From assembly GCA_024742605.1 (NCBI GenBank), contig JANSYC010000015.1, positions 1 through 64,000 on the forward strand: a DNA stretch of 64,000 nt. The letters run 5' to 3'. A program made the translations under genes and the position numbers. Below the pieces are notes generated by a model. The model was not told the DNA's origin and did not search any database. It was given only the letters and a program-made list of their open reading frames with translations. Below, piece after piece: positions 4,494 through 16,664 of the stretch; positions within the stretch are counted from its first letter, which is position 1, and every line of letters starts with the position of its first letter. Source of the stretch: Alphaproteobacteria bacterium (GTDB lineage Bacteria; Pseudomonadota; Alphaproteobacteria; Thalassobaculales; Thalassobaculaceae).

Positions 4494-5237
4494 ATGTCCG
4501 ACTCCATTGCCCCGACCCAGGCCGCCATCGACGAGCTCGCCCCGACCGGCGTCCTGCGGGCGGGGATCAATCTCTCGAACTTCCTGCTGGTGACCGACAA
4601 GACCGATCCGGCAACCCCGAAGGGCGTGGCCCCGGACATGGCGGCCGCTCTGGCGGAGCGGCTGGGCGTGGCGGTGCGGTATGTGCCGTTTCCCAATCCG
4701 GGTGCCCTGGCCGATGCGGCGGGGACCGACAGCTGGGATGTCGGGCTGATCGGGGCGGAACCGGCGCGGGCCGAGAAGATCGCCTTCACCGAGGCCTATG
4801 TGGAGATCCAGGCGACCTATCTGGTCCCCACCGGCTCGAAGCTGCGCCACATTGCCGACGTGGACGCGCAGGGCGTGCGGATCTCGGTCTCCGGCCGCAG
4901 CGCCTACGATCTCTGGCTGACCCGCAACATCCAGAACGCCACCCTGATGCCGGTGGACGGCATCCAGGAATCCTTCGACCAGTTCGTGCAGCTGGAACTG
5001 GAAGCCCTGGCGGGTCTGCGGCCGCGGCTGATCGACGATGTCAAGAAACTGCCGGGCGCGCGGATCCTCGACGGCCAGTTCACCGCCGTGCAGCAGGCCA
5101 TCGGCACCGCCAAGACCAATCCGAACGGGGCCGCCTTTCTGCCCGATTTCGTCGAGGAGGCGAAGGCGTCCGGGTTGGTCGAGCGCCTGATCGAGAAGCA
5201 CGGCGTCGTCGGCCGCCTGACGGTCGCGGGCATCTGA
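4494..5237 (+). CDS. Family 3 solute-binding-protein-like, no signal peptide
   Basis: 247 aa resembling periplasmic amino-acid-binding proteins (SBP_bac_3): GVLRAGINLSNFLL at 17-30, GVAPDMAAALAERLGV near 43-58, WDVGLIGAEPARAEKIAFTE near 80-100, and SVSGRSAYD near 131. The order of motifs fits the two-lobed binding fold. No N-terminal signal peptide or lipobox is visible, so it would stay in the cytoplasm, and no permease or ATPase gene is adjacent. It may therefore be a cytosolic ligand-binding protein or an enzyme of the fold (cyclohexadienyl dehydratase-like). ATG chosen 12 bases after an AAGGAAA-type site; no longer form with a leader is open. Confidence 0.7.
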   Translation: MSDSIAPTQAAIDELAPTGVLRAGINLSNFLLVTDKTDPATPKGVAPDMAAALAERLGVAVRYVPFPNPGALADAAGTDSWDVGLIGAEPARAEKIAFTEAYVEIQATYLVPTGSKLRHIADVDAQGVRISVSGRSAYDLWLTRNIQNATLMPVDGIQESFDQFVQLELEALAGLRPRLIDDVKKLPGARILDGQFTAVQQAIGTAKTNPNGAAFLPDFVEEAKASGLVERLIEKHGVVGRLTVAGI

Positions 5238-6640: not shown

Positions 6641-8329
6641 CTATTCCGCTGCCGGCTTGAGACGGGGCCGGTAGACGCCGACAAAGGCGTTCGTGATCGG
6701 ATAGCGGCGGTCCTTGCCGAACGACTTGCGGGTCACCTTGACACCGGGCGGGGCCTGACGGCGCTTGTATTCCGCCCGGTCCAGCAGGCGCCAGACCTTC
6801 AGGACGACATCCGGATCGTAGCCCATCTCCACGATATCGGCGATCGGGGTCTCGTTCTCGATCAACTCGGTCAGAACCGCGTCGAGGATCGGATAAGGCG
6901 GCAGGCTGTCCTCGTCCTTCTGATCGGGGCGCAGCTCGGCCGAGGGCGGCTTGGTGATGATCCGCTCCGGCATCACCATGCCCTCGGGCCCCAGCACCGC
7001 CTCGGGGCGATTCTGATTGCGCCACCAGCACAGCTCGAACACGGTCGTCTTATAGACGTCCTTCAGCACCGAATAGCCGCCGCACATGTCGCCGTAGAGC
7101 GTGGCGTAGCCGACCGACATCTCGGACTTGTTGCCGGTCGACAGCACCATGTGGCCGAACTTGTTCGACAGCGCCATCAGGGTCACGCCGCGGGACCGGG
7201 ACTGCAGGTTCTCCTCGGTGATATCGCTGTTGGTGCCGGCGAACTGCGGGCCGAGCATCTGGTCGAAAGCCGCCATGGCCGGGCCGATATTGATCGAGAA
7301 ATACTCGACCCCCAGCATCTCGGCGCAGGCCGCCGCGTCCTCGAGGCTGTGCTCGGAGGTGTAGGGTGAGGGCATCATCACGCAGCGCACCCGGTCGGCG
7401 CCCAGCGCATCGACCGCCACCGCCGCCGAGATCGCACTGTCGATGCCACCCGAAAGGCCCAGAATCACGCCGGGGAAGCCGTTCTTGTTCACATAGTCGC
7501 GCAAGCCCACGACCATGGCGTTGTAGATGTCCGCCAGGCCGCGCAGTTCCGGCGCCTTGGCCGCTTCGGCGCAGACCCAGCCGTCGGCCGTCCGAGTCCA
7601 CTCGGTGGTGACGACCGCCTCCTGCCAGGCCGGCAGGCGGAGCGCCAGGCTCCGATCGGCGTTCAGCACGAAGGACGCGCCATCGAACACCAACTCGTCC
7701 TGCCCGCCCACCTGGTTCAGATAGATCATCGGCAGTTCGCTCTCGACCACCCGGCTGACCGCCTGATTGAGCCGGACCTCGCCCTTCTGGAAATCCCAGG
7801 GAGAGCCGTTCGGCACCAGCAGGATCTCGCCGCCGGTTTCGGTGATGCATTCGACCACGTCGGGAGTCCAGATATCCTCGCAGATCGGCACGCCCAGCCG
7901 GATATCCCTGAACGAGATCGGCCCCGGCGGCGGACCCGCATCAAACACCCGTTTCTCGTCAAACACGCCGTAGTTCGGCAGATCCACCTTGTGGCGCGCG
8001 GTCACGACCCGACCGCCGTCCAGCAGCACCATGGAATTGTAAAGCATCTCGCCTTCGGCCCAAGGCGTGCCCACCAGGACAGCCGGTCCGCCATCCGACG
8101 TCTCCAGCGCCAGCGCCTCGACAGCTTCGCGGCACTCGGCGACGAACATCGGCTTCAGCACCAGATCTTCGGGTGGATAGCCGCACACGAACAGTTCGGC
8201 GGTCAGCAGCAGATCGGCCCCGTCGGATGCCGCCTGCGCCCGGGCCTCCCGCAGCCGCGTCATATTTCCCGCCACATCCCCGACCCGAGGATTGAGCTGC
8301 GCGAGCGTGATCTTGAGCGTGTCTGTCAT
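6641..8329 (-). CDS. nadE: Glutamine-dependent NAD+ synthetase
   Basis: 562 aa two-domain enzyme. Residues 1-270 form the nitrilase-type glutaminase with the expected triad contexts TAELFVCGYPPED (Glu), ARHKVDLPNYG (Lys) and LGVPICEDIW (Cys). Residues about 285-562 are the NAD synthetase with the PP-loop motif GLSGGIDSA and the later GNKSEMSVGYATLYGDM. It makes NAD from deamido-NAD, ATP and glutamine-derived ammonia in the cytoplasm. A nicotinate phosphoribosyltransferase (19196-20440) supplies an earlier step of the same salvage route but is not in the same operon. Confidence 0.96.
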   Translation of the reverse strand: MTDTLKITLAQLNPRVGDVAGNMTRLREARAQAASDGADLLLTAELFVCGYPPEDLVLKPMFVAECREAVEALALETSDGGPAVLVGTPWAEGEMLYNSMVLLDGGRVVTARHKVDLPNYGVFDEKRVFDAGPPPGPISFRDIRLGVPICEDIWTPDVVECITETGGEILLVPNGSPWDFQKGEVRLNQAVSRVVESELPMIYLNQVGGQDELVFDGASFVLNADRSLALRLPAWQEAVVTTEWTRTADGWVCAEAAKAPELRGLADIYNAMVVGLRDYVNKNGFPGVILGLSGGIDSAISAAVAVDALGADRVRCVMMPSPYTSEHSLEDAAACAEMLGVEYFSINIGPAMAAFDQMLGPQFAGTNSDITEENLQSRSRGVTLMALSNKFGHMVLSTGNKSEMSVGYATLYGDMCGGYSVLKDVYKTTVFELCWWRNQNRPEAVLGPEGMVMPERIITKPPSAELRPDQKDEDSLPPYPILDAVLTELIENETPIADIVEMGYDPDVVLKVWRLLDRAEYKRRQAPPGVKVTRKSFGKDRRYPITNAFVGVYRPRLKPAAE

Positions 8330-8391
8330 TCAAGACAGATAGCGCGCGGCGCGCGGACGGGCAATGGGGCGCGGGCGCCGGCGATTCTCGT

Positions 8392-9678
8392 CTAATTCGG
8401 ATCCTGGCCGGGCGGGTGACCGGCAGCCAGAGCGGCCCTTAGCATCTCGGCACCATCCTCGGCCGTGGCGCTCCCTGTGTCCCAGAATACGCTCAAAGCG
8501 GTCTCGACCGCAGAGACCACGCGCTCTTGGCCAATCATGATCGGCGACGGCACGGACCCGTTGGTCTTCCTGTAGAGCTTGTCGCCCTCCCGGAGACAGG
8601 AATCGGAGACATGTCTCGCCAGGCCCGTACGTACCGGTATCGCCCATTTCGCGGTGGAGAAGGCCGATTGGGTCTTCGGCTCCAGAAGCACCTCGGCAAG
8701 GGTCCGATGCTGGCCGGTCAGTCCCTTGTAGTCGCGCCTGGGGAAAACGAAGGTATCAATGATCGACAGGTGATGTTTGTGCGGTCCGATCGACAAGGCG
8801 CACGCGAAATCGCGGCCCGGCTGCAATCCGAGTTCCGCCAGTTCCGCCCGCGCCCAATCCCCCATGAACTGAACCAGAGCGTCGCCATGCGCAACCGCCC
8901 GGATCCCGTCCTTCCACGACCGCACCGACGGATTGCGGCTGTCATGGACCCGCAGGTCGGCAAAGATCGACAGTGCCCGCCGAACGATCGGTTCGTCGAC
9001 AAGGCCCGGCTCGCCGGATTCCATAATTTTCCGATGCGCACCGGCACCGCCCTCGCCGATCAGAATATGCGCAAAGAGCGCGCGGCGCTGCCAGGCTTGC
9101 GGTCCCATGGCGATCCGCGGGATCCCGTCCGACTGCGCCCGCGCCAGGACCGCCGCGAGGTCGTCCCAGGTTTCCGGGACACTGTCCGTGTATCGGTGAA
9201 GAAGCGATGAATTGAACCAGGCCCAGTTCTCCCCGTGGATGCCGACCGGAACGGCAAAGACCGCCCCCTCGTCCCCGAGAAAACCGAGCACATCATCCTC
9301 CAAGAACTGCGACCATTCCATATCGTCGGCAAGGTCGGTCAACTCCAGAATGGCACCACTTTCGGACATGGTCCGAAGCTCTCTACCGGCATGCCACTGA
9401 AGCGCGAACGGCGGAATGCCTTCAATGATCCGCTGAAAGGCCAGACGGCGGTTCTCATCGAAATTCTCGGTCGGAAAATCAACCCACACGCCTCCGCGTT
9501 CCCGGAAGGCCTCCCGGATGACCGCCAGCGCCGCGGATTCCGACGGAGACTGCCAGAACGCCTGAACGTCCAGCGCCTCGGCATCGGCGGGATGCCCGTA
9601 GAACGGGGCAAAAAACAGAAGTCCGCAGAGAACGGCGACGGCGAAGCCGTGCCGTTCACGCCGTGAGATCATGACCAT
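8392..9678 (-). CDS. Periplasmic solute-binding protein of a sugar ABC type, paired with a histidine kinase
   Basis: 428 aa with a signal peptide (hydrophobic core about 12-27, cleavage near ADAEA at 31-35). The body resembles family 1 carbohydrate-binding proteins: FDENRRLAFQRIIEGIPPFALQWHAG near 55-80, GAVFAVPVGIHGENWAWFN near 135-155, SVPETWDDLAAVL near 165-178 and DALVQFMGDWARAEL near 270. No permease or ATPase gene flanks it. Its start codon overlaps the 3' end of the upstream histidine kinase gene by 10 bp, so the two are translationally coupled. I infer a ligand-presenting role for the kinase rather than transport, although scavenging for a distant transporter is possible. Confidence 0.75.
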   Translation of the reverse strand: MVMISRRERHGFAVAVLCGLLFFAPFYGHPADAEALDVQAFWQSPSESAALAVIREAFRERGGVWVDFPTENFDENRRLAFQRIIEGIPPFALQWHAGRELRTMSESGAILELTDLADDMEWSQFLEDDVLGFLGDEGAVFAVPVGIHGENWAWFNSSLLHRYTDSVPETWDDLAAVLARAQSDGIPRIAMGPQAWQRRALFAHILIGEGGAGAHRKIMESGEPGLVDEPIVRRALSIFADLRVHDSRNPSVRSWKDGIRAVAHGDALVQFMGDWARAELAELGLQPGRDFACALSIGPHKHHLSIIDTFVFPRRDYKGLTGQHRTLAEVLLEPKTQSAFSTAKWAIPVRTGLARHVSDSCLREGDKLYRKTNGSVPSPIMIGQERVVSAVETALSVFWDTGSATAEDGAEMLRAALAAGHPPGQDPN

Positions 9679-11108
9679 TTCGGGTGCAAACCGTGCGCGC
9701 TCAAGGAATACTCGAAATCGATTTCCGAGGATGCGTCGGTGTCGGACCTGCCCTCCGGCGGGAACCGAATGAGGAACGCGGTTCCCTGATCCGGTCCCGT
9801 CTGCACGTCGATCGGTATCCGATTGACCCTCGCCAGTCCCGCCACAATCGCCAATCCCAGGCCCAAGCCGGTATCTGCCAGGATTTCGCCGTTCGCGACC
9901 GTATGGAAGGGCTTCATCACCCGCTCCATCTCCTCGTGATCGATACCCGGCCCATCGTCTATGATCTCGATGATCTGGTCGCCATCGGCTTCGGACAGCC
10001 TCAGAATGCAGCGATCGACCGCGTGGTGCGTTCCGTTTCGCAGGAGCTGCAGCAGGATCATCCGGACCGCCGCCCGGTCGGCCCGGACCGGAAGGTCTGC
10101 CGTGCGAAGATCCTCAACACGAATTTTTTCCGGATGCCGGATAATGCTGTCCACGGCGGACCGGGCCACCTCGGCCAGATCGATCATATCGTCCAGCCTC
10201 TCATAGATTCCGGCCTGCAGTTCGCCCAAAAGCAGAATATCGTCGATGCGATGGGTCAGGACTGTCCCGGCCTGCAGAATTGATGCGGCATAGCGTCCGG
10301 CGTCCGAGTCCGCTTTGGCACCGGCCTCAGAAAGCATCTGCGAGTATCCGTTGATGACGTTCAGCGGCGTCCTCAGTTCATGGGAAACCTGGTAGAAATA
10401 CCGGGTCCGCACGCTGAGACTCTCTTGAAGATCCCTGAAATCCCTTTGCGCCCGCACACATAGCGGTCGGAAGTACTTGAAAACCAGAAGGCCCGCCAGG
10501 ATCAGGATCACGAGAAACGAGACCAATGCGGCCGAGAACTCAATGAGACGCCATCTCGCATCGAAGCGGTAAGAGGATTCTTCGAGTTTCTTGAGATGGG
10601 ACATCAGGATCCCGAACGGCGAAATCGCAAGATCGGGCAGGGTCCAGCTACGGCGGATCTCGGTATCCGTTCCGGAACTGAGCTCCAAAGCCCGGCTCAG
10701 AAAATTCGACATCACCGACCGGTACGCCTGCTCCTCCACCGGGGCCATTCGCACCCATTCCACGGGCCGGTTCAGTCCGTCGAACAGGCGCGTGATCTCC
10801 AGGTCCCGTTTCGCGACAGCCGCGCCGAGGGTTCGGATAATCTTGCGTTGGCTGTGGAGCAAGGTGGGGTTTGCGGTCCCGGCCTCCTCATACAGGAGCA
10901 CGGCCTGGGCGGTGCGTCCGATCTGTCGCAGATCCTCCGATTGCTCGTCGACCAGGGCCCGCAGACTGCCGGAATCGTATTGTTTGGAATGGATCGTATG
11001 AAGCAGGAGAATATGTGCGATCAGCAGTCCCGCAATGGTGCCGAAGAAGACCGTTCCTAACCGTCCAAGCTTTGCTATGGACCGCGCATCGGCATTTTGC
11101 TCGTTCAT
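9669..11108 (-). CDS. Transmembrane sensor histidine kinase
   Basis: 479 aa. TM1 spans about 17-37 and TM2 about 190-210, enclosing a periplasmic sensor region of about 150 residues. After a short linker the HisKA domain has the phospho-acceptor His243 in QVSHELRTPLNVI, and the HATPase_c domain shows LLRNGTHHA (N box, about 355-363), IIDDGPGID (G1, 382-390) and TGLGLGLAIV (G2, 413-422). It should autophosphorylate at the inner membrane. No response regulator gene is in the window. The downstream solute-binding protein gene overlaps it by 10 bp. A TATAAT-containing promoter lies 48-74 bp upstream. Confidence 0.92.
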   Translation of the reverse strand: MNEQNADARSIAKLGRLGTVFFGTIAGLLIAHILLLHTIHSKQYDSGSLRALVDEQSEDLRQIGRTAQAVLLYEEAGTANPTLLHSQRKIIRTLGAAVAKRDLEITRLFDGLNRPVEWVRMAPVEEQAYRSVMSNFLSRALELSSGTDTEIRRSWTLPDLAISPFGILMSHLKKLEESSYRFDARWRLIEFSAALVSFLVILILAGLLVFKYFRPLCVRAQRDFRDLQESLSVRTRYFYQVSHELRTPLNVINGYSQMLSEAGAKADSDAGRYAASILQAGTVLTHRIDDILLLGELQAGIYERLDDMIDLAEVARSAVDSIIRHPEKIRVEDLRTADLPVRADRAAVRMILLQLLRNGTHHAVDRCILRLSEADGDQIIEIIDDGPGIDHEEMERVMKPFHTVANGEILADTGLGLGLAIVAGLARVNRIPIDVQTGPDQGTAFLIRFPPEGRSDTDASSEIDFEYSLSAHGLHPKWS

Positions 11109-11541
11109 CCAAGTTCACCCGATGGCAATGTGCGCGTTCTGCACTACGAGCAGTATTATATCATTTGTGGCTAAAGTACAATTATTACTATTTGGTTAAG
11201 CCAGCGAACCCAGTTGAATAGGCCACCCGATCAGCTTCCGCGTCTGACTGTTGTTCGGATATTTCAGCCAGCTGTTTCAGTAAACACCCAAACTATTTGT
11301 TCGGCACGGCATGCTTCTGCGCTCCACGGTCGGTTCCTTGGTCTCCTTGAGCATCCGAGTGAGATCGTAGGCGGAAGCCGCCTCGATCCCCTGACAAATC
11401 CAGCAGGTTCGCCCTCTACCTGAAGACAGGGCCGTGGCCGTACCCTGCACGCCATACCCGGCCGGACCCGCCCAAAGACCCTCACGCGGGTCCGAAACCC
11501 TATGCCATACGCGCACGAGAACTCGAAGGGAGGAAGTGACG
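11109..11541. other. Intergenic region between kinase operon and sulfotransferase relic
   Basis: About 430 bp without a supportable gene. Bases 11150-11220 are AT-rich and carry the kinase promoter. From 11220 to 11541 I see no coding pattern, repeat or RNA gene; short open frames there have no recognisable protein. Confidence 0.6.
11156..11182 (-). promoter_or_regulatory. Putative promoter of the kinase/binding-protein operon
   Basis: On the minus strand a perfect -10 box TATAAT (11161-11156) is preceded by TTGTAC (11182-11177) with a short 15-bp spacer. It sits in an AT-rich patch that contrasts with the surrounding GC-rich DNA and would give a leader of about 40 nt. The -10 is convincing; the -35 spacing is suboptimal, so activator help is possible. 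Confidence 0.5.
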
Positions 11542-12054
11542 GTGCAGAATCGGCCCTGCCTCAAAAAGACCCGCGAGCTTCACAATCACCATATGGATTC
11601 GACCGTCTGGAACGACTTCAGGTTTCGCGATGATGACATCGCTATTGCAACCTATGGAAAATCCGAAACGACCTGGCCTCAGCAGATCGTCAGCCAGTTG
11701 ATCTTCAACGGCGCCGAAGGGCCGAAGGTCTTGAGGACGCCGAGATATCGCCCTGGATGGACCTGCGGATGCCTTGGAAGGAGATCACGCTGCAGGCGGT
11801 CGCAGCCCAGACCCATCGGATGGGACACGATCCTGGATCACTGCGCGTTCGACTACATGAAGGCGAATGCCGCGAAACCGGTGCCGATGGCCGGCATCCT
11901 CTGGCATGGCGGCGCCGACACCTTCAGGAACAAGGGCGTGAACGGCCGCTGGCACGACGTGCTCCCGGAGCAGGACCGGAAGCGCTACGAAGCGCCTACG
12001 GTCGAGAATCTCGGTCCGGAGTGCAGCGCCTGGCTGGCGTCGGGTGGGTGCTGA
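11542..12054 (+). pseudogene. Sulfotransferase pseudogene (frameshift plus large internal deletion)
   Basis: A GTG with a GGGAGGAAG ribosome site opens a frame that matches the N terminus of sulfotransferase-domain proteins: NHHMDSTVWNDF, DDIAIATY and QQIVSQLIFNGAEG. The PAPS-binding loop, normally KSGTTW, reads KSETTW. Near 11735-11745 the similarity moves to another frame (SPWMDLRMPWKEITL, about 11740-11820) and then, at about 11820, returns to the first frame at the family's C-terminal part (ILDHCAFDYMKANAA, then GPECSAWLASG). The roughly 150 central residues, with the second PAPS-binding site, are missing. The gene cannot make an active enzyme. Confidence 0.8.
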
Positions 12055-12222
12055 CGGCGGTTGGCGCTGCCCGACCGTCGACAACTGCGCTGCGACAACG
12101 GCGCAGCTTCAAAGGGAGCTTAAGCGGGTCGGGGACGAGGTACATGCGCCGCGTAGGGCAGGCTCTTCAGGGCCTATCGGAAACCGACCGGATGCCCGCA
12201 GCCAGGAGCCCCCCTGGCCCGA

Positions 12223-13437
12223 TCACACGACCCGCTCGGATGGAAACAGAAGAGTGACGGTTGTGCCCACCATCGGTTCGCTCTGAATTTCCATTGTGCC
12301 GTTGTGCAGCCTCATCAGACGATCGACGATATATAGACCGAGACCGGTACCTTTGTTGGGGCGCGTATGGTAGGCGGCGAACTGGGTAAATGGCTCGGCG
12401 ATTGTCTTTTGGTCCTCAGGCGAGATGCCGACCCCTTCATCGGATACGGAAACCAGGTATTGCCCGTTATCGTCGACCCTCGCCGCCACCAAGATCTCGC
12501 TGCCGTCTGATGAAAATTTCACGGCGTTAGAAACCAGGTTATTCAAAATCTGCAGCATCGCCCTTTTATCGGCCCGTAGATTGGGCAATGAGTCCGCTAT
12601 GTGCACCCTGACAGTCTGATTCTTCGTTCTTACATAGACTTGATTTTGCGTTATGCTTTCACCAATCAAGTTTTTTAGTTCGATGATTTCGTCATCTATA
12701 TCGTATTTACCAGCCTCAATCTTGGATAGATCGAGTATATCATTGATCAGATTCACCAGAAGCATTCCGCTGCTGTGAATGTAGTTCGTATACTCGTCGT
12801 AACGCCGGTCTCCCAAAGGCCCGAAGACCCGCGCCTGCATCATTTCACTGAAGCCGACGATCGCACCCAGAGGGGTCCGCAGGTCGTGACTCATCGCTGC
12901 AAGGAAATTGGACTTGGCACTGTTCGCCTGTTCGGCCTCCTCGGCGCGATCGCGGATCTCTTGGATTAGGGCTTCTTTCTCTTTGACCGAGTCCTCGATT
13001 TTCTGTTGGGCTTCAACGATCTCAGAGACGTCCTGGGCGGTGCCGATGGTGCGTATCGGTTCGCCATCATCGTTGTAGTAGGTGACCCCTCTTGCCTCGA
13101 TCCATTTGGCCTTGGCCCCCGCTTTCACGCGGCACCTGATATTGTACTCGCGTCGCTGGTTGACCGCGGCCTGGTAAGCCCTGTGAACCCAGTCCAGATC
13201 GTCTTCATAAATCAGAGACAGAAACAGTTCATAACTCGGCGGATTCAGGTCTGGCTCGATTTCATAAATCGCGAAAATTTCCTCGGACCAATACAGTGTC
13301 TCAAGTTGATGGTTAAGCTCCCAGAACCCCACGCCAGACAAGCGCTGACTTTCCTGCCGACGCCGCTCCGATACTTCGAGCGCGGATGCAAGATCATCAC
13401 CTCGGGTCCGCGCCATTCCTATGCGACCTCTATCCAA
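12223..13437 (-). CDS. PAS-domain sensor histidine kinase, cytoplasmic, orphan
   Basis: 404 aa with no membrane segment. A PAS/PAC fold occupies about 30-140 (GVGFWELN, YWSEEIFAIYEI, AKWIEARGVTYYNDDGEPI, GTAQDVSE). A coiled-coil linker (about 140-175) leads to HisKA with His184 in AAMSHDLRTPLGAIVGF, then HATPase_c with LNNLVSNAVKFS, VSDEGVGIS and GTGLGLYIVDRLM. Two starts are possible, 13437 and 13416. No response regulator is adjacent. The DNA is visibly less GC-rich than its neighbours, which together with the adjacent pseudogene suggests an acquired segment. Confidence 0.9.
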   Translation of the reverse strand: MDRGRIGMARTRGDDLASALEVSERRRQESQRLSGVGFWELNHQLETLYWSEEIFAIYEIEPDLNPPSYELFLSLIYEDDLDWVHRAYQAAVNQRREYNIRCRVKAGAKAKWIEARGVTYYNDDGEPIRTIGTAQDVSEIVEAQQKIEDSVKEKEALIQEIRDRAEEAEQANSAKSNFLAAMSHDLRTPLGAIVGFSEMMQARVFGPLGDRRYDEYTNYIHSSGMLLVNLINDILDLSKIEAGKYDIDDEIIELKNLIGESITQNQVYVRTKNQTVRVHIADSLPNLRADKRAMLQILNNLVSNAVKFSSDGSEILVAARVDDNGQYLVSVSDEGVGISPEDQKTIAEPFTQFAAYHTRPNKGTGLGLYIVDRLMRLHNGTMEIQSEPMVGTTVTLLFPSERVV

Positions 13438-13691
13438 GAAGCGGGAAATTATCTCAAGAATACAGTTTTCGAGGCTCGATGCACAAGTTGCAGACGTGAC
13501 GCACCAAGTGACTGCGCATTATCGTTTGTGCCCGCTGATCTGTTGAGCTGCGTGTCGAGAGAAATGGCGTAAGCTGCCCGCTCAGCTTGCTCCGGGACAA
13601 TGTGCCAGCCTGTTGGACTTACCGTCCGCCGGCGGACGCTGCGAGATCGGCGCCGACGGGCGGCATCTTCCGACAAAAGAGCTCCGCCCCC

Positions 13692-14768
13692 TCACAGGGT
13701 CTCTCGCGGCGACCAACGGCCGGCACCGCTGGCGAACAGGGCGAAAACGATGCCGTACAGGAAACTATGGCCCAGCACGCCCTCGTTCATCGAGATCGAA
13801 AAGAACGCGAAAGCGAAGACCAGTACAAAACTCAACGGTCGAACCATCACGCCAACGGTGATCAAGATGCCGACGACAACTTCGACCGTCGCCACGATGA
13901 AGACAAAAACCTCCGCCGGAAATCCGAATAACGGCAAGCTATAGATTTCCACTCCTGCAAGGAGATATGTCGGGTGCAGAAGCTTGTAGAAGATCCCGAG
14001 ATACAGAAAGCTCAGGCCCGTCCCTATGCGGAGAACGGCCTGAGCGCGGCCGGGGGGAACCGATGCCACCAGACGGACCAGGGCATCGGGGTCCTTTAGG
14101 AGTTCGAAATGCCCGCCGCCTTTCACGAACAGATAATAGGCGGTCGCGATCAGCACGCCGGCGTAGGCGAGCATGTCGACATCGAAGATCCAGAACCCCA
14201 GCAGCACGAGCGCGACCAGGAGAGCGGAAGCCACGCGCGTCCAAACACCGAGTAGAAAGGCCGCCGCAAGAGCGATCTGTGTCCAGATCACCCAGGTCCA
14301 GTCGCCGGAGACGTGGCGAAACTCGAGATCGGACGCGAAAAGCACCGGGCTTTCACCGATTTCATATCCGAGTCGCGGATGTAGCCCGAACGCTGCCGTG
14401 ACAAACATGGCGGCCAGCCCCAGCCGAAGCGCGACCGGAACCCATGGCTCCAGGCGTTCGGCATTGACCTTGGGGAGTTTGAAGTGGTCCGCGACCCGAT
14501 CGGGAATATCGGTTCGGCCGATACCGACCCACCCCACGACGCCAAGGAGCGCGATAAGAGAGATCGCCACATTCGCGAACCCGAGCGTCGTGAAGATCTC
14601 CGGCAGGGGCTTCGCGTGGGCAATCGCTTCCTGGTCATGGGTGATCACCCAGGTGTCGTGCGCCAAGGTGGGCCAAGCGGTCGCGAGCGACACGAGAGCG
14701 ACTGTCCAGAAGGCTTGGGCGAAGGTGAAGCCCACGGGCCTCCGGCGATCAAAACCCAGATGCATCAA
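13692..14768 (-). CDS. DoxX-like integral membrane protein
   Basis: 358 aa with about eight hydrophobic segments. An N-terminal signal-like helix is followed by a region with one or two helices (to about 75), then a DoxX-type four-helix bundle with ALRLGLAAMFVTAAFGLHP, WVIWTQIALAAAFLLGVWTR and, later, AVLRIGTGLSFLYLGIFYKLLHP. The DoxX family includes subunits of quinol oxidases and membrane partners of redox enzymes, but most members have no assigned role. Its ATG overlaps the stop of the upstream haloperoxidase-fold gene by 4 bp, so the two are translationally coupled and probably act together at the membrane. Confidence 0.7.
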   Translation of the reverse strand: MMHLGFDRRRPVGFTFAQAFWTVALVSLATAWPTLAHDTWVITHDQEAIAHAKPLPEIFTTLGFANVAISLIALLGVVGWVGIGRTDIPDRVADHFKLPKVNAERLEPWVPVALRLGLAAMFVTAAFGLHPRLGYEIGESPVLFASDLEFRHVSGDWTWVIWTQIALAAAFLLGVWTRVASALLVALVLLGFWIFDVDMLAYAGVLIATAYYLFVKGGGHFELLKDPDALVRLVASVPPGRAQAVLRIGTGLSFLYLGIFYKLLHPTYLLAGVEIYSLPLFGFPAEVFVFIVATVEVVVGILITVGVMVRPLSFVLVFAFAFFSISMNEGVLGHSFLYGIVFALFASGAGRWSPRETL

Positions 14769-16162
14769 ATCGTTCCGTCGATGAAGCGCATTGCGTGATC
14801 GTGGACCTTCTGGGCAACGGCGCGGCCAAGGATGCGTCCCATCTGATCCCCTGTCGTGAAATGGGCCTGACCGTAGATCCCGGAGATCGCGATGTCCCGT
14901 TCCGCCTCGGTCAGCGTTTCCATGGACAGAACGACATCGTTTGCCGGTCCGTCATCAAACGCGAAACTCCCGGCCTTCACGACCACGGTGTAGTTCAACA
15001 CATCGCTGCCGGTGGCCAGACGCAGCGCCTCGCCGCCGGCATATCCGAAGGCGCTGTGGCCCGAAAGATGCTCGGGCGCGGCGGCCGTCGGGCGATACGG
15101 CATGAAGTTCTTGCCCTCTATGACCTCCGCACCGCGACCACGTCCGCCCCAGGCGAGAACCCTCTCACCCGCGAACAGGGCGCGGATGAGGGTTTCCGGG
15201 CGCGCGGTCAGGAAGTGCATCTTGGCCTCGATCTTGGCAATCGCCGTGTCGTGTAACGCATTGCCCAGGATGAAGAACATCTTGATGTCCTGGTCGAGAC
15301 CGTGATCGCGTGTCTGCGAGATGTGCTGGGCGAGAAGGTGAAACTGGCCCGGAGGCGTTGGCGTGCCGTTGCCAAGGGTCCAGAACTCGGCGATCGCCTT
15401 GTCACGATCCGTCAAATCCGCGTTGACGTCTATGATCTGCTGGGCCAGCGCCCGCAGCTCCCGATCGTTGTAGGTCAGCGCTGGCGCCGACATCGGCCGA
15501 AACTCGTCGGCCCGGTAAAGCGCGAACGGCTGTATGAGGGGCCAGTGACCACCATCGAAGAGCGCCGGTTTTCCGTTCGACCCCATGATCGGCTGGTGTC
15601 GGCGAAAATCGATGAGCCGATCCGCAGGATTTGGTGGGGTGTAGCGGGTATAATCTGAATACGCGCCCGGGCTTCGGTCTCCCAACTGGTTCGCCCCGTC
15701 GTTATGCGCATGGCGCAGTTCCAGGTCGGCCGCGAGCAAGCCCAAGCCTGCCGGCGCTTCGTGATCGGATCCAGACAACGCGATGTCCAGGCCCAGCTCA
15801 TTCATGACCGCGCGAAAGCGTGCGCCCTCGCCGGGGAAAAGATCGCCAAGCGTCCGATAGGCGGCATAGCTGATGGCTGTCGATTTGTTGTCGGCCGAGT
15901 GTTCGGCAGCCGGGCGACGGAGTTTCGCGGTGTCGAGCCTCACACCCAGAGCCTTTGGATCGTAAACCGTCCACGCGTCGTACATCGCGCGGTGCACGAC
16001 AGCCAAGGCGCGGGAGGTAACGAGATCGCTGCTGCCACTCGACTGAACAGCGTCAATGGCGACCTTGTTCCATCGGACGACGATCGTCTCCGAATGTGCG
16101 GCCGTTGCGAACCCATTCGAGAGCACAAGAACAAAGAGCAGACGCGATAAAACCTTAAACAT
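14765..16162 (-). CDS. Secreted vanadium-haloperoxidase / PAP2-fold protein
   Basis: 465 aa with a signal peptide (about 1-24, cleavage near AHSET). The fold's motifs appear in order: KMHFLTARP, a full match to KxxxxxxRP; then EHLSGHSAFG, the PSGH-type motif; then SGIYGQAHFTTGD where the family has SRxxxxxHxxxD. The catalytic histidine contexts are kept, but the arginine of the last motif is Gly and the aspartate position is shifted. Vanadium-dependent haloperoxidases oxidise halides with peroxide; bacterial relatives also include acid phosphatases. A clear ribosome site (GGGGA) precedes the ATG. It overlaps the DoxX gene by 4 bp. Activity is uncertain because of the third motif. Confidence 0.8.
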   Translation of the reverse strand: MFKVLSRLLFVLVLSNGFATAAHSETIVVRWNKVAIDAVQSSGSSDLVTSRALAVVHRAMYDAWTVYDPKALGVRLDTAKLRRPAAEHSADNKSTAISYAAYRTLGDLFPGEGARFRAVMNELGLDIALSGSDHEAPAGLGLLAADLELRHAHNDGANQLGDRSPGAYSDYTRYTPPNPADRLIDFRRHQPIMGSNGKPALFDGGHWPLIQPFALYRADEFRPMSAPALTYNDRELRALAQQIIDVNADLTDRDKAIAEFWTLGNGTPTPPGQFHLLAQHISQTRDHGLDQDIKMFFILGNALHDTAIAKIEAKMHFLTARPETLIRALFAGERVLAWGGRGRGAEVIEGKNFMPYRPTAAAPEHLSGHSAFGYAGGEALRLATGSDVLNYTVVVKAGSFAFDDGPANDVVLSMETLTEAERDIAISGIYGQAHFTTGDQMGRILGRAVAQKVHDHAMRFIDGTI

Positions 16163-16328
16163 TCCAATATCCCCCGCCGTCCGTTCCTCGCCGAGCCGCC
16201 TGAATGGTGCTTGGGAACGGAGCGCTGATCATGAAGGTACCAGCTTCACCGGGCACGTCCACATGACAAGGACGCGGGTCACCCCGCCGGACCAAACGCC
16301 CCTCTTCCGAAGTCGGGCCCCTTTCACG

Positions 16329-16664
16329 TTACCCCACGCGCCCCTTGATCCCCTTCAGCATCGGGGTGAAGTCGTAGGTCGGGTAGAACTCGGTGTCGAA
16401 GGCGCCCCAGGCGGATTTCTCGATCGCCAGGTTGACGTCGCGGAGCTTGTGACCGGGTACCTTCAGGATCGCGACCTGACCGATGCCCATCATCACGTAC
16501 CAGCCGACCACCTGGACGCCGTCGGGTGGAAACTGTTTCCAGAACCCGGTCGCCTCCAGCTTGGCGTTGATCTCCCCCAGGTTCTTGTCCTTCTGGTGCC
16601 GGAGCATGACGGTCAGCAGAATCTCGCCCTCGCCCGCCGCCTCGGTTGCCATCAGCTCCGTCAT
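16329..16664 (-). CDS. Hypothetical protein, small alpha/beta (ferredoxin-like?)
   Basis: 111 aa, soluble, with a strong GGGGAGG ribosome site before the ATG. The alternation ILLTVMLRH ... GWYVMMGIGQVAILKVPG suggests a ferredoxin-like alpha/beta fold of the kind seen in small dimeric barrel proteins, and the C terminus TEFYPTYDF is distinctive. I do not recognise the family. It is divergent from the DUF1330 gene, whose product has a similar predicted fold, so they may be related in function. Confidence 0.6.
   Translation of the reverse strand: MTELMATEAAGEGEILLTVMLRHQKDKNLGEINAKLEATGFWKQFPPDGVQVVGWYVMMGIGQVAILKVPGHKLRDVNLAIEKSAWGAFDTEFYPTYDFTPMLKGIKGRVG

Follow-up and report, generated by a model that had tools for sequence, protein, structure and literature searches.

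Structure of the kinase–binding protein locus

The window analysed here, a 64,000-nt stretch of a 66,669-bp contig from an alphaproteobacterium of the family Thalassobaculaceae, contains two adjoining genes on the minus strand, with the kinase gene first and the binding protein gene second. The first gene (9669–11108) encodes a membrane histidine kinase of 479 amino acids with Pfam HisKA (residues 235–300) and HATPase_c (residues 344–451) domains. The second (8392–9678) encodes a periplasmic solute-binding protein (SBP) of 428 amino acids that belongs to the SBP_bac_1 family and has a signal peptide at approximately residues 1–33 and otherwise no membrane span. A sequence-only reading of this DNA had reported that the two genes overlap by 10 bp; the coordinates of both genes bear this out, the kinase stop and the SBP start overlapping at 9669–9678 (minus strand), and both open reading frames (ORFs) look genuine. 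The same reading had assigned the pair a shared TATAAT promoter. The motif is present as the extended −10-like element TGATATAAT (11155–11163, minus strand), a candidate promoter 46 nt upstream of the kinase ATG, but a promoter role is plausible only, because the −35 partner is poor (spacing of 15 nt), the element is not listed by a standard promoter scan and 17 of 100 shuffled windows contained at least one such extended −10 motif.

The H, N and G boxes of the kinase are intact, and the phospho-acceptor histidine motif SHELRTP lies at residue 242. Hydropathy places two membrane spans at about residues 18–36 (TM1) and 192–210 (TM2), enclosing a segment of around 150 residues, and Pfam detects neither a HAMP nor a PAS domain between TM2 and HisKA, which starts about 25 residues past TM2. 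The kinase thus has the two-span layout, periplasmic segment, intact catalytic motifs and adjoining SBP gene of SBP-activated histidine kinases. The periplasmic sensor segment (10554–10997, minus strand; residues of about 38–185) is probably helical, as suggested by a low-confidence single-sequence AlphaFold model (pLDDT 46). We found no Pfam family and, by sequence, no solved structure in the PDB for residues 38–185, in agreement with the earlier statement that this segment of about 150 residues has no named sensor fold. Moreover, searches of 385 genomes of the class, PDB sequences, Pfam and plasmids gave no real match beyond the source genome, and no orthologue of the sensor domain by itself was found in the 385-genome class sample. 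The kinases encoded beside GltB-type SBPs (loci L022 and L023) resemble the window kinase in the catalytic core only; their sensors gave no blastp match to its sensor, which is therefore not assigned to the GtrS type.

A glucose-type binding protein with an altered cleft

The SBP matches PF01547 with 47.4 bits (cut-off, 26). Its nearest solved relatives in both sequence and fold are the glucose-binding proteins 5xpj/5dvj, 8hqq, 4r2b and 2b3b, from Pseudomonas putida CSV86, SAR11, Ochrobactrum and Thermus (phmmer, 1e-38 to 1e-40; Foldseek, 4e-28, with a model pLDDT of 85). Sequence match and closest structures both place it among the GltB/ppGBP-type SBPs (CUT1, SBP_bac_1), an affiliation that the sequence-only reading had not recognized, nor had it noted the transporter-free relatives paired with GGDEF–EAL receptors that are described below. 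We compared its cleft with that of ppGBP, for which PMC7927077 lists 12 residues in contact with glucose; the SBP retains 7 of them (W36, E41, Q90, W250, W270, D303 and K339; ppGBP numbering) and so does not carry the full set. W35 is replaced by F, the G68 glycine loop by TEN and N301 by I, and K92 gives way to an HAG motif, the histidine of which corresponds to H66 of the Thermus glucose-binding protein, one of the positions changed to adjust the glucose affinity of a sensor (PMC12609159). The position of H379 is not safely alignable.

In the numbering of the SBP itself, the pocket residues W42, E47, Q94, H96, W255, W275, D308 and K344 fit those of sugar-binding relatives, whereas F41, S46, E71 and N72 stand in place of ABC-type residues. 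These residues suggest that the ligand is likely to be sugar-like. Given that several of the ppGBP glucose contacts are changed, we do not claim glucose specificity; the most likely candidate is a different sugar or a sugar derivative.

Isolation of the pair and its reading as a two-part sensor

The sequence-only reading had found neither a permease nor a response regulator within 20 kb of the pair, which understates its isolation: the whole 66,669-bp contig contains no match to the permease family PF00528 (BPD_transp_1) and none to the receiver family PF00072, and no ORF in the window combines a Walker A motif with an ABC signature motif. The genome has 16 SBP_bac_1 matches, and comparison by coordinates showed that 14 of them have a PF00528 match within about 1.5 kb; the remaining two are the window SBP and one match close to a contig end. 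The window SBP therefore lacks the linked permease and ATPase genes that its ABC-linked relatives have. The genome contains 43 PF00072 matches, every one on other contigs. Receivers encoded without a nearby kinase are CtrA, a DivK-like protein beside a PleD-like protein, small CheY-like proteins and one OmpR-type protein (C80, L046), and none of these could be tied to the pair as its specific response regulator. Elsewhere in the window, positions 4494–5237 (plus strand) encode an SBP_bac_3 protein with no obvious signal peptide and no permease on the contig.

The principle of an SBP informing a membrane receptor is already known from LuxPQ, NspS–MbaA and GltB–GtrS. LuxPQ differs from the window pair in that its kinase, LuxQ, is of the hybrid type and LuxP comes from another SBP family. 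In Pseudomonas aeruginosa, GltB binds the periplasmic domain of GtrS with a KD of 0.1 µM, and activation requires the glucose pocket of GltB (PMC7927077). The GltB–GtrS–GltR system shares with the window pair the glucose-binding SBP family and, as proposed here, the activation of a membrane kinase through a periplasmic domain, which in GtrS (residues 29–199) is similar in size to the window segment; by contrast, gltB is part of an operon for transport, gltBFGK-oprB, and GltR serves as the regulator of GtrS (PMC7927077). Characterised SBP–kinase couples are gene neighbours in 10 of 11 cases (PMC11113362). The Vibrio luxPQ genes (VCA0736–0737) form a transporter-free SBP–kinase operon with a distant response regulator, luxO being located elsewhere (VC1021) (PMC8621022). 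NspS–MbaA of Vibrio and Sinorhizobium likewise combines a transporter-free SBP with a membrane receptor, and the two genes usually overlap, but NspS is a PotD-type polyamine SBP, its gene comes first, and MbaA, unlike the window kinase, is a HAMP–GGDEF–EAL protein with about 230 periplasmic residues (PMC9993111).

Given GltB–GtrS, the gene adjacency of known SBP–kinase couples, the overlapping nspS–mbaA genes and luxPQ with its distant luxO, we propose, with a probability of roughly 0.65, that the kinase and the SBP form a dedicated two-part sensor acting on an unlinked response regulator. The interpretation of the locus as a binding-protein/kinase sensing pair thus remains the best one and the isolation is real, but the accompanying expectation that such pairs normally adjoin permease or regulator genes has exceptions in luxPQ and nspS–mbaA. 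In the proposed mechanism, of which we infer the SBP–kinase interaction, the ligand, the sign of the response and the regulator partner, the exported SBP would descend from glucose-type (CUT1) ABC binding proteins, would no longer be tied to a transporter and would capture a small ligand, most likely the sugar or derivative considered above. In a ligand-dependent form it would dock on the periplasmic segment of the adjoining kinase, and the signal would pass through TM2 straight into the HisKA dimer, with no HAMP or PAS domain found between them, altering autophosphorylation; the phosphate would then be passed to a response regulator encoded elsewhere. The 10-bp overlap may provide translational coupling that keeps the kinase and the SBP in balance.

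A possible transporter-free branch shared with rhizobial receptor-linked SBPs

We compared the SBP with 15 ABC-linked homologues, the permeases of which were recognized by Pfam, annotation or ORF inspection and which often also have a beta-glucosidase and a LacI regulator. On plasmids of Rhizobium, Sinorhizobium and Agrobacterium, homologues of the SBP (30–35% identity) are encoded directly downstream of a membrane GGDEF–EAL gene with no transporter adjoining. Seven such loci (L096, L099–L101 and L104–L106) were inspected by annotation or ORFs, and the GGDEF–EAL receptor is present in 34 rhizobial plasmid records. These pairs resemble the window pair in their SBP branch, in being transporter-free and in the position of the SBP gene directly downstream of the gene for a receptor with two membrane spans; they differ in having a GGDEF–EAL output instead of a kinase and, in the annotated cases, in showing no gene overlap.

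An IQ-TREE PMSF tree of 24 SBPs (2 kinase-linked, 7 EAL-linked and 15 ABC-linked) placed the kinase-linked and EAL-linked proteins together on one side of a branch (support of 97/96) and all 15 ABC-linked proteins on the opposite side. Removing three ABC rows left support for this grouping at 95/94, and placement of the kinase-linked SBPs beside any of five ABC groups was rejected (p-AU of 0.0205 to 8e-5). Long branches lead to the kinase-linked as well as to the EAL-linked SBPs, which may exaggerate the grouping, and the software itself cautions that joins of this kind can be spurious; trees were therefore also built with either group left out. Tested singly in this way, each group attached at the same branch, which is also where the root might lie. 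At 52 columns the two kinase-linked SBPs differ from the ABC consensus; the EAL-linked SBPs share 14 of these changes (27%), compared with 5/41 and 4/29 for two control pairs. Several of the shared changes sit in the ligand-cleft region (F41, S46, E71, N72 and W95). Taken together, these sequence comparisons make a fair but not conclusive case for a common sensory branch of kinase-linked and EAL-linked SBPs. The placement in the tree weakened the view of the window SBP as an ordinary ABC binding protein.

The same data bear on a rival explanation, which we consider unlikely, in which the SBP still serves an unlinked CUT1 ABC transporter while also informing the kinase, in the manner of GltB. 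The SBP family is indeed a transporter family, Pseudomonas GltB performs both functions (PMC7927077) and the genome holds many permeases; however, nearly every other SBP_bac_1 gene of the genome is linked to its own permease gene, and the window SBP differs from every ABC-linked relative at cleft residues and falls off their side of the tree.

The EAL receptors carry, between their two membrane spans, an unnamed segment with no Pfam domain. A profile of this segment aligned collinearly with kinase residues 38–185, and 2 of 2,000 layout-keeping shuffles scored equally high; searched against 2,597 ORFs, the profile ranked the window kinase only fourth (E = 2). The evidence that the kinase and EAL sensor domains are homologous is thus suggestive and falls short of significance. 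As a tentative extension, which we rate at somewhat below even odds, there may be an alphaproteobacterial branch of glucose-binding SBPs that is transporter-free and purely sensory and that works with an unnamed helical receptor domain joined to different outputs. If so, the SBP and the sensor domain would constitute a single exchangeable input module, connected to GGDEF–EAL in rhizobia and to a kinase here.

The rhizobial GGDEF–EAL/SBP pair is possibly an undescribed c-di-GMP sensing pair. Literature searches gave nothing relevant on this pair or on transporter-free combinations of a histidine kinase with a sugar-binding protein, and the SBP branch of the window, its sensor domain and its output pairing were not found described. 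Receptor activation by SBPs is believed to be widespread but is difficult to find; an SBP branch without transporters and beside a receptor would serve as a marker for purely sensory SBPs and would point to the residues that separate sensing from transport SBPs. With only two genes and a choice of two outputs, such a system would also suit the study of how SBPs switch receptors. Among the rhizobial loci, which lie on large plasmids, the receptor and SBP genes occupy 3945–7221 in L099, 3860–7242 in L100 and 3800–7167 in L101; TadE/TadG pilus genes follow the pair in L101 and occur nearby in L099.

Conservation within the genus and insertion beside nadE

A congeneric MAG (G001; L013/L016, uncultured Rhodospirillaceae) encodes an SBP that is 67% identical to that of the window, preceded by the end of a kinase with 61% identity over 97 residues; the sister contig ends within the kinase gene, and the kinase comparison covers this end only. 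In both species the two genes overlap by 10 bp, and in both the SBP gene is separated by exactly 62 bp from nadE (6641–8329, minus strand; NAD synthase with an amidohydrolase domain), which lies downstream. Because the overlap and the gap are identical in the congeneric MAG, the overlap is not a product of chance. Divergence estimates (NG86) between the window and the sister species gave a dN of 0.245 and a dS of 1.26 for the SBP (dN/dS of about 0.19), 0.273 and 0.86 for the kinase end (about 0.3) and 0.023 and 0.58 for nadE. The SBP and the kinase are thus under purifying selection, and their protein sequences change about ten times faster than that of the housekeeping neighbour nadE.

No orthologues of the pair were found in the 34 other genomes of the family (n = 36) or in the 385-genome class sample, and comparison of the nadE neighbourhoods of 30 genomes confined it to the genus. 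The conservation in related genomes to which the sequence-only reading had looked therefore holds within the genus (two genomes) and was not found elsewhere in the family or in the class sample. An orthologue of the gene at 16329–16664 directly precedes nadE in 9 of 28 relatives' loci, with gaps of 68–155 bp, and lies about 0.85 kb from nadE in one further relative. In the window, these two genes are parted by a lineage-specific block of about 8 kb (8330–16328), the G+C content of which is 0.60, compared with 0.66 and 0.63 on its flanks. Given that the orthologue adjoins nadE in these relatives, the pair is part of a lineage-specific insertion at the edge of nadE, and the genus has gained it next to an everyday NAD-making gene.

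An origin by insertion raises a second alternative, to which we give little weight, in which the kinase and the SBP adjoin by an accident of acquisition, the kinase senses alone and the SBP has a different role. Gene adjacency by itself does not prove SBP–kinase coupling: neither binding of AgtS to, nor interaction of AruS with, neighbouring SBPs was seen (PMC11113362). The inserted block also contains further unrelated genes. Against an accident, two species retain the overlap and gene order to the exact base even though a third of their protein sequence differs. It is very unlikely that the kinase, SBP and nadE genes form one transcription unit through which NAD synthesis is adjusted: all three share a strand and the 62-bp gap is exactly kept in the sister species, but nadE occurs without the pair in 32 of the 34 other family genomes, and a weak terminator-like stem (8342–8354) lies inside the SBP–nadE gap. 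The dedicated two-part sensor, by comparison, is supported by an order, overlap and 62-bp spacing that are kept under purifying selection in the sister species.

The remainder of the block holds a sulfotransferase remnant, a second kinase and DoxX-like and vanadium-haloperoxidase-like genes. The sulfotransferase remnant (11434–12054, plus strand; PF00685, 31.9 bits in short stretches) has an apparently broken frame. The second kinase (12223–13518, minus strand; PAS_3–HisKA–HATPase_c) is also regulator-less and has no membrane span that we could see. At 13692–16162 (minus strand), the gene for a DoxX-like membrane protein overlaps by 4 bp that for a DUF6851/VCPO_2nd (vanadium haloperoxidase-like) protein, which seems to carry a signal peptide. 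The gene at 16329–16664 (minus strand) encodes a short conserved protein with no Pfam family, and in several relatives a divergent DUF1330 gene lies behind it.
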